Assembly (NCBI GenBank): GCA_023657465.1
Contig: JAGTJX010000003.1
Location: forward strand, 800,830-864,829
Reading direction: 5' to 3'
Source of the DNA: Lysobacteraceae bacterium
GTDB lineage: Bacteria; Bdellovibrionota; UBA1018; JAGTJX01
DNA length: 64,000 nucleotides
Both the position numbers and the translations under genes were made by a program. Shown piece after piece: positions 21,844-25,778 of the stretch. The notes beneath the pieces are model-generated. The model had not been told where the DNA came from. It worked only from the letters and a program-made list of their open reading frames with translations, and did not search any database. Every line of letters starts with the position of its first letter. Within the stretch, counting starts at the first letter, position 1.

Positions 21844-22665
21844 TCACAGTATAACTTCATTACGCCTGCGTTGTCTGCTCCAAAAAACACCAAAAAAGAT
21901 CCCCATCACTAAAACAGTAAGTGCACCCGCAATCTGCATCACTCGAAATGCATAGAGGGAATAACCACCCATTTTTGGATCATAGTGGAAGCAATACATC
22001 AGAACTTTGTCGACGATGGTGCCGACTTTTCCATTTGACGCTTCTAGTAATGCGAATTTGAGATTTTTTTTCTCAAACTGAACACCATACAAATATCTAG
22101 AGACCACTCCCTCAGGAGTGAGAAGCATTAATGCTGCGCTGTGTGCAAATTCTTTTTGTCTTGGATCATAGTGAAAACCGAACCCTACTTGGTCAGCGAG
22201 CTTTTTGATTTGCTCTTCGCGCCCTGTCAAAAACCTCCAGCCTTGAGGATCAATATTGCGGCCGTAAGCTTTGAGAAAACTGGCCTTCTTCTTCGTTGCT
22301 AGATCTGCTAGCTCACGGTGATCCATACTCACACTGAGGATGGTGAACTGGTGACCCGCATTCCACTCAAGCTCCTTGATCACATCAAGCATCCCATTGA
22401 GAAGCAATCCACAGAGATTAGGACAGTTGTAATAAACGATATTCAGGATGACGGGTTTACCAGACTGAAAGAAAGACTTCAGAGGGAGCTCTTTTCCCGA
22501 TTCATCTCTGAGTAAGAGGGTTTCCAAATCTACTTTTGAGCCGAGCTTTTCTGAAATCCCCGCTTCTTTGAGTTGAGGCGGAGTAGCGTTTGGTTTTTCG
22601 ATTTCCATCGCTGAAGAACAAGTGAGTAAGAGTGCAGTTAATGCAGTTGAAACAAGATGGATCAT
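21844..22665 (-). CDS. SCO1/SenC copper chaperone
   Basis: Membrane-bound thioredoxin-fold protein that helps load copper into the CuA site of CoxB. The copper ligands are visible: Cys81 and Cys85 in YYNCPNLCG and His175 in EFAHSAA. There is an N-terminal hydrophobic leader (TALLLTCSS, an imperfect lipobox) and, less usually, a C-terminal transmembrane helix near residues 240-262. It is the first gene of the oxidase operon and shares a 31-base intergenic space with the divergent heme O synthase gene. Confidence 0.92.
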   Translation of the reverse strand: MIHLVSTALTALLLTCSSAMEIEKPNATPPQLKEAGISEKLGSKVDLETLLLRDESGKELPLKSFFQSGKPVILNIVYYNCPNLCGLLLNGMLDVIKELEWNAGHQFTILSVSMDHRELADLATKKKASFLKAYGRNIDPQGWRFLTGREEQIKKLADQVGFGFHYDPRQKEFAHSAALMLLTPEGVVSRYLYGVQFEKKNLKFALLEASNGKVGTIVDKVLMYCFHYDPKMGGYSLYAFRVMQIAGALTVLVMGIFFGVFWSRQRRRNEVIL

Positions 22666-22696
22666 AGTAGGCTTGTTATGCTACTTTGATCCTCAA

Positions 22697-23656
22697 ATGA
22701 CAAGTCTCTCAGCCAAAATCACTCAGTACAAAGCATTCTCAAAATCTGGAATCGTGACACTCGTTCTCATCAGTGTTGTCGGTGGTTATTTTATGAGCAT
22801 GCCGCTGGATCAGTCGTTTCAAATAGGACATTTTGTGCTGACATTGGCTGGAGTTTTGTTTCTTGCCTCAGGATCCTCTGCCCTCAACCAATTCCAAGAG
22901 ATTAGACTGGACGCCAAAATGCCAAGGACTGCTGGTCGCCCACTTCCATCTGGCGGAATGTCTGAGCGTGAAGCATTGATTTTCATTGGGGTGTCCTTAT
23001 TGATAGGGATTTTGTGCTTGGCGAAGATCTCTGTTTTAGTTCTCTTTTTAGGTTTAGGCGCAGTTTTCTCTTATAATGGACTCTACACGATGTGGTGGAA
23101 ACCTCGCATGGCTTACGCTGCAGTTCCAGGAGCAGTTCCTGGTGCACTTCCTATTCTCATGGGTGCAGCTTCGGCCGCAGACGGGATAAACGCCTCCGGC
23201 GTTTATTGGTTTTTCATTCTCTTCTTCTGGCAGATGCCTCACTTTTGGGTGTTAGCGGATCGCTACAGTGCCGATTACCGAGCAGGCGGAATCCCTACTC
23301 TTCCAGTCTCTCGCGGGACAGAAGTCACTCACTTCCAGATTGTGCTCTGGTGCTTGGCTTATATTGGTCTTGCATTGGCAGGCCCTCTTTTCTTAGAGGC
23401 GGAGTGGATTTATTTTATTGGCGCGCTTGTTGTCAGTGTCGCAATTCTTTTTGAGCTTGTAAGGTACTCTAAAGCACGTCTAATCGTTTCATCTGCTGTG
23501 ACTACAATTGGAACTACAGCAGAACCCGATCCTACTGAAAAGAAAGCATGGCTCAGATTCTTCCTCTGGGTCAACTTCAGCTTGATTCTGTTTCTCCTCT
23601 TCGCAGTAATTGACCGCTGGAAGATGGTCTGGTTCCCTAGTCTTTGGGTTGAGTAG
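22697..23656 (+). CDS. ctaB: Protoheme IX farnesyltransferase (heme O synthase)
   Basis: UbiA-family prenyltransferase that adds the farnesyl chain to heme B, the first step toward the heme A of CoxA. The two prenyl-diphosphate binding regions are NQFQEIRLDAKMPRTAGRPL and ADRYSADYRAGGIPTLPVSR. In the first, a Glu replaces the first Asp of the usual N-x3-D-x3-D. About eight membrane helices follow. I start at the ATG at 22697 (319 aa), because the earlier frame overlaps antisense sco1. It is transcribed divergently from the oxidase operon. Confidence 0.94.
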   Translation: MTSLSAKITQYKAFSKSGIVTLVLISVVGGYFMSMPLDQSFQIGHFVLTLAGVLFLASGSSALNQFQEIRLDAKMPRTAGRPLPSGGMSEREALIFIGVSLLIGILCLAKISVLVLFLGLGAVFSYNGLYTMWWKPRMAYAAVPGAVPGALPILMGAASAADGINASGVYWFFILFFWQMPHFWVLADRYSADYRAGGIPTLPVSRGTEVTHFQIVLWCLAYIGLALAGPLFLEAEWIYFIGALVVSVAILFELVRYSKARLIVSSAVTTIGTTAEPDPTEKKAWLRFFLWVNFSLILFLLFAVIDRWKMVWFPSLWVE

Positions 23657-23666
23657 CGTCCTCTAT

Positions 23667-23753
23667 GCGCAAACTTTGCGCCATATTTCCCTTTTTCGGA
23701 ATTATGACACACTTTCGTTCATGAACTAGGGCCATATTTCCTTTTTAGGAAAT
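23667..23753. repeat. Short palindrome and two direct copies of a 22-bp motif downstream of ctaB
   Basis: GCGCAAA-C-TTTGCGC (23667-23681) is a perfect inverted repeat. It runs into the first copy (23680-23701) of a motif GCCATATTTCC(C)TTTTTnGGAA, and the second copy lies at 23731-23753. Each copy is itself an imperfect palindrome (ATTTCC...GGAAAT). The rest of the gap between ctaB and the next gene holds a terminator. Confidence 0.55.
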
Positions 23754-23765
23754 AGAGCGAATGTA

Positions 23766-23811
23766 CAAATAAAAAAGCCAACTCTGTGCGATTAGCATCC
23801 AGAGTCGGCTT
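23766..23811 (-). terminator. Rho-independent terminator of the gene at 23832-24419
   Basis: Read on the minus strand, AAGCCGACTCTG and CAGAGTTGGCTT form an 11- to 12-pair stem with one mismatch around a 13-base loop, followed directly by a run of T (TTTTTT ATTTG). It starts 20 bases after the stop codon of the upstream minus-strand gene. Confidence 0.85.
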
Positions 23812-23831
23812 ATGATTAAACTTTAGATTTA

Positions 23832-24419
23832 TTACTTACGGTAATAGTCTTCAAGGAGCTCTTTGTTTTTCTTCTCATCAATTTCGGGTTTGTAACTCTT
23901 GAGGCGCTCAATATCTTCTTTAGCTGTTTTAACTGTAAACTCCACTTCAGTAATATAATCCTTATCTGCATTTTTCTGATTTGGATAGTAATTTTGCCCA
24001 TGATTTGAGATGTACATTTTCCCTGTGCTCACCAATACACCATCAAATCTGACAAGTGGATTAAAACCAGGATTGTTCTCTGAAAGGTTAACGGAGAAAG
24101 TAGCGTAGGGTTTAGTTTTGAATTCTGCTGCTACAGAGTTAATTGCATCATTAAACTTTGGATTCGCACAGATGCGCTCTTGGAAATCCCTCATTTTTTT
24201 AAGTAGTTCCGTAGGAGCAATTTTCGCAAGCTTATCTTTGCTTCGATCTCCTTTTACATATTTTCCATCAGTGTATTCTTGAACACGCGCTGTATCGCTA
24301 TTGGCGTATTCAGGATGTTTATAAAAATGGATTGTTGCTTTAATATTCGGATTCTTACATGGCCCACTTGCCATTGCACTACTTGCTGCAAACACTGCCA
24401 TCACTAATAATGTTTTCAT
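23832..24419 (-). CDS. Exported protein of unknown function
   Basis: A 195-residue protein with a signal peptide ending near SAMASG. The mature part starts GPCKNPN, has two cysteines (a possible disulfide) and is rich in lysine and asparagine, with a charged helical C-terminus (about residues 165-195). I recognise no family. It sits between the oxidase and alternative complex III genes but has its own terminator. It also has a 13-C tract 28 bases before its ATG, so it is probably an independent unit. Confidence 0.75.
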   Translation of the reverse strand: MKTLLVMAVFAASSAMASGPCKNPNIKATIHFYKHPEYANSDTARVQEYTDGKYVKGDRSKDKLAKIAPTELLKKMRDFQERICANPKFNDAINSVAAEFKTKPYATFSVNLSENNPGFNPLVRFDGVLVSTGKMYISNHGQNYYPNQKNADKDYITEVEFTVKTAKEDIERLKSYKPEIDEKKNKELLEDYYRK

Positions 24420-24447
24420 TTAAACTTTCCTCCAGCTGACAATTCTA

Positions 24448-24460
24448 CCCCCCCCCCCCC
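24448..24460. repeat. Homopolymer of 13 C upstream of an exported-protein gene
   Basis: Thirteen consecutive C (G on the coding strand) lie 28 bases upstream of the ATG of the minus-strand gene at 23832-24419. This is where a promoter spacer or the 5' untranslated region would be. Tracts of this length slip readily during replication. The remaining sequence to actF (24461-24575) shows nothing else I can name. Confidence 0.9.
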
Positions 24461-24575
24461 GATAGAACTCAATGACAGTGATTTGACTGAGACCATACGC
24501 GATGCGATGAGGTTCGCGAAACACGAACTCAGCAAGCGGATGTCTCACTGATATGAGTGACGACTAAAGGATTGA

Positions 24576-25778
24576 CTAAATATGATGATGGAACACAGAG
24601 TTCGCAAGATTCGGATCACCGATAGCCACTACATTATTCTTCGAGAGGAATCGGAATAAGAAGAATCCGAAGACTCCCAAGAATCCAACAGTAGTGCCGA
24701 GCTCAATCCATCCCAGCTGCAAGCCCTTGTTACCGAAAAACTCAGGCTGAACGATCCAGATGAGATCCATATACTGAGCGATGAGCATAAAGATACCTGT
24801 ATAGAAGAGAATTGCCTCTGTACGTTTCGCGGATCTACGCATGAGGAAGAAAAACGGAACTAAGAATTTACCCACGAGTAGGAACACTGACAAGTACAAC
24901 CACGGATGGGTCATGCGCTTGATCATGTAGCCTGTTTCCTCTGGAAGGTTGGCGTACCAAATGAGCATGAACTGAGAGAATCCTATGTAAGCCCAGAACA
25001 CAGTGAATGCGAACATGAATTTACCGACATCGTGAAGGTGATTGTCGTTCACAATGCCTGTGAGCATTCCACGACGTCGGAGAAACACGAGCATGATTCC
25101 TGTTGCAGCGAGACCTGAGTAGAAGATCCCTGCGAATGCGTACACACCGAACATGGTAGAGAACCAATGAGCATCAAGCGACATCAACTGATCAAACGCA
25201 ACCATCGTGAACGAAATCGCAAAGATCATGAGGAAGATCGGAGCCATTACCTTGTTACGAGCTGAGAGAGCTGGATCACGAGATTCATCTTGCTTCAGAG
25301 AATTTCCGACCATCTTGTTTGCAAACACTAGCCATAAGAAGAGAGCGATCGAATCACGGATGATGAAAAATTTCTGATTGAGATATGAGGCTTTGCCTTC
25401 AAGCACGAGATCACCCGCTACGTATTCAGGATGAGTCCAATGATAGATGTCATGAAGTCCATAGAAGAGAACTCCGAAAGTCACGATCGCAAACGGAAGA
25501 TACGCAGTGAGTGCTTCAGACACACGACGGATCGGCGCACTCCACATGGTTTGTGAAATATACTGAACGGAAATAAAGAAGAGCGCTCCCATTGCAATAC
25601 CAAGGAAGAAGAAGTGATTCACAACAAAACTCGCCCAAGCTCTGTCCTTGTCGGCCATCATACCGGCGATGAAGAGACCTAATCCACCCAGAGCCATTGC
25701 TCCTAGAAGTCCTTGGAATCCAGACGAAACTTTTAAGCTACCTGGGTTATTGATCGTGCCTGTGTGTCCGTGTGCCAT
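24576..25778 (-). CDS. actF: Alternative complex III subunit ActF (NrfD-like membrane protein)
   Basis: Second polytopic quinone-interacting subunit of alternative complex III. About ten hydrophobic helices in 400 residues, from AMALGGLGLFIAGMM to a C-terminal FLGVFGFFLFRFL, fit the shortened NrfD-like family. The glycine-rich N-terminus is cytoplasmic or periplasmic and carries no motif. It is the last gene of actA-B-C-D-E-F, 3 bases after actE. Confidence 0.9.
   Translation of the reverse strand: MAHGHTGTINNPGSLKVSSGFQGLLGAMALGGLGLFIAGMMADKDRAWASFVVNHFFFLGIAMGALFFISVQYISQTMWSAPIRRVSEALTAYLPFAIVTFGVLFYGLHDIYHWTHPEYVAGDLVLEGKASYLNQKFFIIRDSIALFLWLVFANKMVGNSLKQDESRDPALSARNKVMAPIFLMIFAISFTMVAFDQLMSLDAHWFSTMFGVYAFAGIFYSGLAATGIMLVFLRRRGMLTGIVNDNHLHDVGKFMFAFTVFWAYIGFSQFMLIWYANLPEETGYMIKRMTHPWLYLSVFLLVGKFLVPFFFLMRRSAKRTEAILFYTGIFMLIAQYMDLIWIVQPEFFGNKGLQLGWIELGTTVGFLGVFGFFLFRFLSKNNVVAIGDPNLANSVFHHHI

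Follow-up and report, generated by a model that had tools for sequence, protein, structure and literature searches.

A run of 13 consecutive G residues, read on the coding (minus) strand 5' of a gene for a predicted exported protein, lies between two hexamers that resemble the -35 and -10 elements of a promoter. Probably, at odds that we would put near two in three, this run makes the promoter spacer variable in length, and serves a transcriptional phase variation of the type known from porA and tp0126 or from the Bordetella fim genes. Switches of this kind have, of course, been described before. What would be new is the occurrence of one in Bdellovibrionota, and its apparent repetition as a cassette.

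The G13 run in its predicted promoter

The window, by which is meant the whole stretch of DNA that was analysed, is 64,000 nt long. On its plus strand the run is a C13 that spans 24448-24460; the coding strand reads G13. The 28 bases of 24420-24447 separate it from the ATG (24419-24417) of the gene at 23832..24419 on the minus strand, exactly as the first-pass annotation had it. Dinucleotide shuffles of the window give an expectation of 0.26 (sd 0.60) for C8, all 6 matches to C8 stem from this one run, and the longest other run of G or C in the window has a length of 6.

The run is also the longest of G or C in the genome (2,832,305 bases, 4 contigs). Here, 49 overlapping matches reduce to 30 distinct runs of at least 7, of which 21 have length 7, four have length 8, three have length 9, one has length 10, and one has length 13. 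A geometric fit from which the 13-run was left out expects 0.026 runs of at least 13 and 0.86 runs of at least 10. Thus, the 13-run is longer than chance would deliver, and the 10-run is not unusual by its length.

The annotation had placed the tract in a promoter spacer or in a leader. It is the first of these that fits, and what had been missed are the two hexamers, TTGAGT and TAGAAT, that flank it. Read on the coding strand, the order is CAGTCAAATCACTGTCATTGA-GT-TCTATC-G13-TAGAAT-TGTCAGCT-GGAGG-AAAGTTTAA-ATG. The -35 consensus is TTGACA, which the -35-like TTGAGT (24467..24472, minus strand) matches at 4 of 6 positions. The -10-like TAGAAT (24442..24447, minus strand) abuts the run, and the pair of hexamers agrees with the consensus at 9 of 12 positions. 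A conserved box of 21 nt, CAGTCAAATCACTGTCATTGA (24469..24489, minus strand), which is found twice in the genome, overlaps the first four bases of TTGAGT, and a five-base match to a Shine-Dalgarno sequence, GGAGG (24429..24433, minus strand), lies 9 nt 5' of the ATG. Judged from the sequence alone, the layout is that of a sigma-70-like promoter, with the run placed between the -35-like and the -10-like hexamers.

The spacer between TTGAGT and TAGAAT has 19 nt (6 + 13), of which the run supplies 13; both the run length of 13 and the 19-nt spacer are known from one assembly of one genome. A standard promoter scan of the region gave 3 matches, against 2.8 in shuffles, and therefore hexamers by themselves are no evidence here. 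TTGAGT/TAGAAT is absent from that scan because only spacers of 16-18 nt are taken. The spacing is 19, rather than 17, at the G13 site as assembled, 18 at a second copy in the same genome, and 17-19 across seven sites in the phylum, these two included. The predicted promoter-spacer anatomy of the G13 site is well supported.

Were the run to vary, the switch would work as follows. Slipped-strand mispairing during replication would add or remove single Gs. As these are gained or lost, the distance from the -35 to the -10 would shift around an optimum of about 17 nt. With a 19-nt spacer, as read, transcription would be low or absent, and it would rise as the run became shorter. Cells with and without the exported protein would then coexist in the population. 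The benefit might be an envelope that differs from cell to cell in the face of phages, grazers or prey, which is a guess.

Several known promoters are built in this way. In the passages that PMC7864442 devotes to them, tp0126, an OmpW homologue of Treponema pallidum, carries a poly-G between its -35 and -10, with the best transcription at 17-nt spacing, and a poly-G between the -10 and the -35 of porA in Neisseria meningitidis alters their spacing. A poly-C does the same between the -10 and the -35 of gonococcal fetA, by the portion of PMC5320596 that treats that gene. The G13 site shares with tp0126 a poly-G in the same position, and with porA and fetA a homopolymer in the -35/-10 spacer. It differs from tp0126, for which length variation and expression were measured, in that the present case is one of sequence only, of a longer run (13), and of a protein whose family is unassigned. 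It differs from porA and fetA in that those genes, in a host-adapted genus, encode known outer-membrane proteins, whereas here an exported protein belongs to an environmental lineage.

The exported protein and its surroundings

The gene at 23832..24419 encodes 195 amino acids. Its N-terminus, MKTLLVMAVFAASSAMASG, is one that we take, from general criteria, to be signal-peptide-like, and it passes a crude export test (described below) as well. The claim that the protein is exported thus holds, as a predicted export that implies no place in the cell. The larger proposal, that a surface protein undergoes phase variation, fares differently in its two parts. Phase variation gains from the position of the run in a promoter spacer and from the recurrence of the layout in the genome and the phylum; of the surface protein, what stands is that it is exported.

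No Pfam or NCBIfam family matches the protein at its cut-off. Searches of 39 other genomes of the order, of genome_contigs (where the own or very near genomes are perhaps not included), of plasmids and of viral contigs gave no relative, nor did the protein have a match in any of 80 loci taken from relatives. The 39 genomes of the order and genome_contigs likewise offered no congeneric orthologue for a comparison of tract lengths. Matches in the PDB with E values of 0.24 and 0.42 (ribosomal eL28) were taken as noise, and a single-sequence fold with a mean pLDDT of 43 was not relied on.

The gene was also said to have its own terminator. This agrees with folding, which places an intrinsic-terminator-like hairpin, with a stem of 15 pairs and a U run, at 23775..23811 on the minus strand, 3' of the stop codon. 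Its energy is -21.3 kcal/mol (z -4.27), and 0 of 200 shuffles are as stable. No Rfam family reaches its gathering score in 23400-25000. Together, the box, the -35-like TTGAGT, the 6 nt that follow it, G13, TAGAAT, the Shine-Dalgarno sequence, the ATG, the signal-peptide-like start and the terminator constitute in the sequence a self-contained cassette of predicted elements.

This cassette is contained in an interval of 919 nt (23657-24575). The interval lies between an actF-like gene (24576-25778), which is on the minus strand, as is the cassette, and has no Pfam match, and a convergent, ctaB-like gene (22622-23656) that Pfam places in the UbiA family. Names such as actF, sco, ctaB, ctaC and ctaD are our readings of the translations; the UbiA family is the only one of these that was confirmed.

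In at least 10 of the 35 loci listed, out of the 80 from relatives, an actF match precedes a ctaB match that converges with it. Between the ends of the two matches lie 26-42 nt in four listed loci (L066, L068, L070, L073), and 165-3974 nt in six others (L067, L071, L072, L074, L076, L084). Because its size varies among relatives in this way, the actF-ctaB interval seems to accept variable cargo. It is possible that it is a cargo site, as in L067, L072, L076, L084 and positions 23657-24575 of the window. ORFs with signal-peptide-like starts are carried in the intervals of L067 and L084. The 35 listed loci hold no G or C run of 9 or more.

A second putative G-run promoter in the same genome

The second-longest run in the genome is a G10, which lies on another contig (C3:194168-194177, locus L010). 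Here, the order is box, TTGATT, 8 nt, G10, TAGAAT, GGAG and ATG, and the spacer is 18 nt. The 21-nt box occurs with 3 mismatches or fewer at only two places in the genome, which are the G13 and the G10 promoters, and the two agree at 20 of 20 specified bases; the pattern was, of course, written from those same two sites. When the runs are masked, the two promoters align with a score of 31, a value that 0 of 2000 resampled pairs reach (maximum 19). The similarity extends from the box through the -10 and the ATG into the start of the signal peptide. The exported proteins downstream of the two runs are not homologous (BLASTP E 31).

These results bear on the view that the G13 run grew by chance or neutrally within a functional promoter or leader, and that its length is without effect. 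Such a view can point to a length of 13 that comes from a single assembly, and to runs of 9-10, which are expected by chance (0.86 of at least 10). It must, however, accommodate the finding that the same layout goes with the longest and the second-longest run in the genome, when the chance that two marked runs among 30 are precisely the two longest is 0.0023, and that it stands in other families of the phylum as well. Neutral expansion is, we believe, quite unlikely.

In the second copy, the frame opened by the ATG after the ribosome site soon meets a stop and differs from that of the exported ORF (L010 1553-2035). On its reading frames, the gene as assembled is broken or mis-sequenced. The stretch L010 1501-2035 (G000:C3:194168 onwards) may be a broken gene, a second switch or an assembly error.

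Homopolymers are error-prone, and the start codon of the second copy, which does not share the frame of the exported ORF, may be an instance of such an error. One might, by extension, suspect that the length of the G13 run, or the whole of it, is an artefact of assembly or sequencing. This is very improbable when 0.026 runs of at least 13 are expected, when the flanking promoters are alike far beyond shuffles, and when the layout is present in independently assembled genomes.

Recurrence of the layout in the phylum

The phylum was taken to be Bdellovibrionota from the CtaD-like protein, whose eleven best named relatives (69-74% identity) are assigned to Oligoflexia, Bacteriovoracaceae, Bdellovibrionales, Bdellovibrio, Bacteriovorax and, in one case, "Proteobacteria." A search anchored on the -35, with the pattern TTGAN{6,16}G8-TANAAT, covered 55 genomes of the order and found 3 matches in 2 of them; 58 genomes of the class gave the same 3. 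In the phylum it found 6 matches in 4 of 368 genomes, against 2 for the reversed pattern, an excess that by itself would count as weak. With no -35 required, G9-TANAAT gave 13 matches in 10 of the 368 genomes against 1 reversed, and with C in place of G there were 4 against 1. A gap of 1-5 nt between the run and the -10 gave 31 entries in 21 of the 368 genomes, and 13 raw matches when reversed. Once overlaps and re-listed touching sites were dropped, the gapped search had delivered 19 distinct new sites over five offsets. Gapped sites thus number 19, with 13 raw reversed matches, and touching sites stand at 13 against 1, so that a position directly next to the -10 is the one that the run of G favours. 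One gapped site with an export-type start (L158) was dropped, as another promoter-like site is nearer to its gene. The layout recurs in other families of the phylum, and in genomes that were independently assembled.

The 13 touching sites from the G9-TANAAT search were chosen regardless of their -35. In 7 of the 13, TTG begins a hexamer at a spacer of 17-19, against a background expectation of 5.5% taken from positions 35-199 upstream in those loci (P 1.9e-6); the other 6 have no TTG at such a spacer. The seven are not independent, since three come from one genome (G351) and two from the genome studied here. Counted per genome, the result is 4 of 10 (P 0.0015) and, with the own genome left out, 3 of 9 (P 0.011), these three being G351, G039 and G009. 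The run and the rest of the spacer amount to 13+6 in L057, 10+8 in L064, 9+9 in L055, 10+9 in L063, 11+8 in L065, 10+9 in L058, and 11+6 in L059. Thus, across the seven sites the G and non-G parts vary, and their sum stays within 17-19.

Bordetella offers a different way of building such a switch. The part of PMC1891110 that deals with fim2, fim3 and fimX of Bordetella describes promoters with an upstream box common to several of them, the conserved "fim box," and a C-stretch as the homopolymer before the -10. A possible likeness to these promoters is the 21-nt box, upstream of the run and common to two promoters of the present genome; a homopolymer before the -10 is another. The differences from what that part describes are a G run where Bordetella has a C-stretch, and a TTG at -35 spacing.

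On this model, the box would bind an activator, TTGAGT would merely resemble a -35, and the G run would set the distance from the activator to the -10. The outcome would still be phase variation, made by another protein contact. The box is indeed the best-conserved part of both promoters in the genome, reaching 17 nt upstream of TTGAGT, and the -35 match is weak. The activator system of the Bordetella fim promoters is known. For the present box, however, no activator is known, and TTG at 17-19 recurs in G351, G039 and G009, where the box was not found to be common. An activator-spacing switch is unlikely, though not negligibly so, and the preferred reading remains a run that varies the distance between -35 and -10.

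To examine the genes that follow, a crude export test was used that takes a Shine-Dalgarno match, an ORF of at least 60 aa, and a hydrophobic N-terminus with K/R, all within 150 bp. It was applied to 15 touching sites, the 13 above and two (L050 and L051) from the TTGA-anchored search. It finds an export-type start behind 7 of the 15, and behind 1 of 15 (L054) when the sites are read the other way (Fisher P 0.018). By eye, L060, which fails the Shine-Dalgarno rule, and L064, which has a frame problem, are also export-type. No qualifying start lies within 150 bp of L050, L053, L054, L056, L062 or L065. The run of L056 directly precedes a 92-aa ORF, presumably a ribosomal one, and that of L062 is inside a 472-aa ORF; these two sites fall within ordinary genes or at their beginning, and are counted against the switch reading. 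For the gapped sites the corresponding figures are 3 of 19, with 0 of 19 when read the other way, and TTG at spacer 17-19 is found in 2 of 19.

One genome, G351, has three G-run sites within 3.2 kb (C131:3296, 4745 and 6468) and two more on other contigs. The three (G351:C131:3296-6482) are L052, L063 and L065, and the first of them has a 3-nt gap. The proteins after L063 and L055 in this genome match at 41% over residues 1-51, with a looser alignment of low identity beyond.

A broader reading would have it that Bdellovibrionota hold an undescribed set of phase-variable promoters. Copies of one cassette (box, G run, -10, ribosome site and signal-peptide start) would stand before unrelated exported proteins within a genome, and the bacteria would thereby mix their exported or surface proteins at random. 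It draws on the two loci of the own genome and on the two proteins of G351 that are alike mainly near the N-terminus, and we regard it as tentative and rather doubtful. Possibly, it would also cover large surface lipoproteins, such as one of 1602 aa in G191.

In G191, on a contig of 3.0 Mb (L182 680-5606, G191:C1:1033683 onwards), a G10 lies within CTGACA-N17-TATAAT. The gene that follows has its ATG 96 nt downstream and encodes a repeat protein of 1602 aa with a lipoprotein-like N-terminus, which failed the crude test because its ATG is without a good ribosome site. Pfam finds Reelin-subrepeat just above its cut-off, with no single stretch that passes, and BNR below the cut-off. The gene in G009 is an ORF of 647 aa, for which Lcl_C scores below its cut-off.

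Phase variation by homopolymers is known mostly from host-adapted bacteria. No account of such switch promoters in Bdellovibrio or Bdellovibrionota was found among the papers listed, by title and opening of the abstract, in a literature that lay mostly outside subscription journals. The main text of a comparative genomics study of the obligate predators of the phylum (PMC11656739) is without the words "phase" and "homopolymer," and that of a survey of homopolymeric tracts (PMC2831843) is without "Bdellovibrio." If the switch reading is true, switching of the promoter type would occur across several families of a phylum that is largely environmental and counts bacterial predators among its members. 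This would suggest that to switch exported proteins at random is also of use in a life among phages, grazers and prey. A G run that touches TANAAT, with TTG at a spacer of 17-19, would be a search signature for candidate surface genes.

Other G runs met in the survey are of different kinds. In L167, L056, L004 and L046, runs of 8-9 G lie just 5' of a start codon, where they may act as Shine-Dalgarno sequences. In L174 (G362:C30:71331), about 30 Cs, an A and 7 Cs are followed by 11 Gs, which looks like an assembly artefact.
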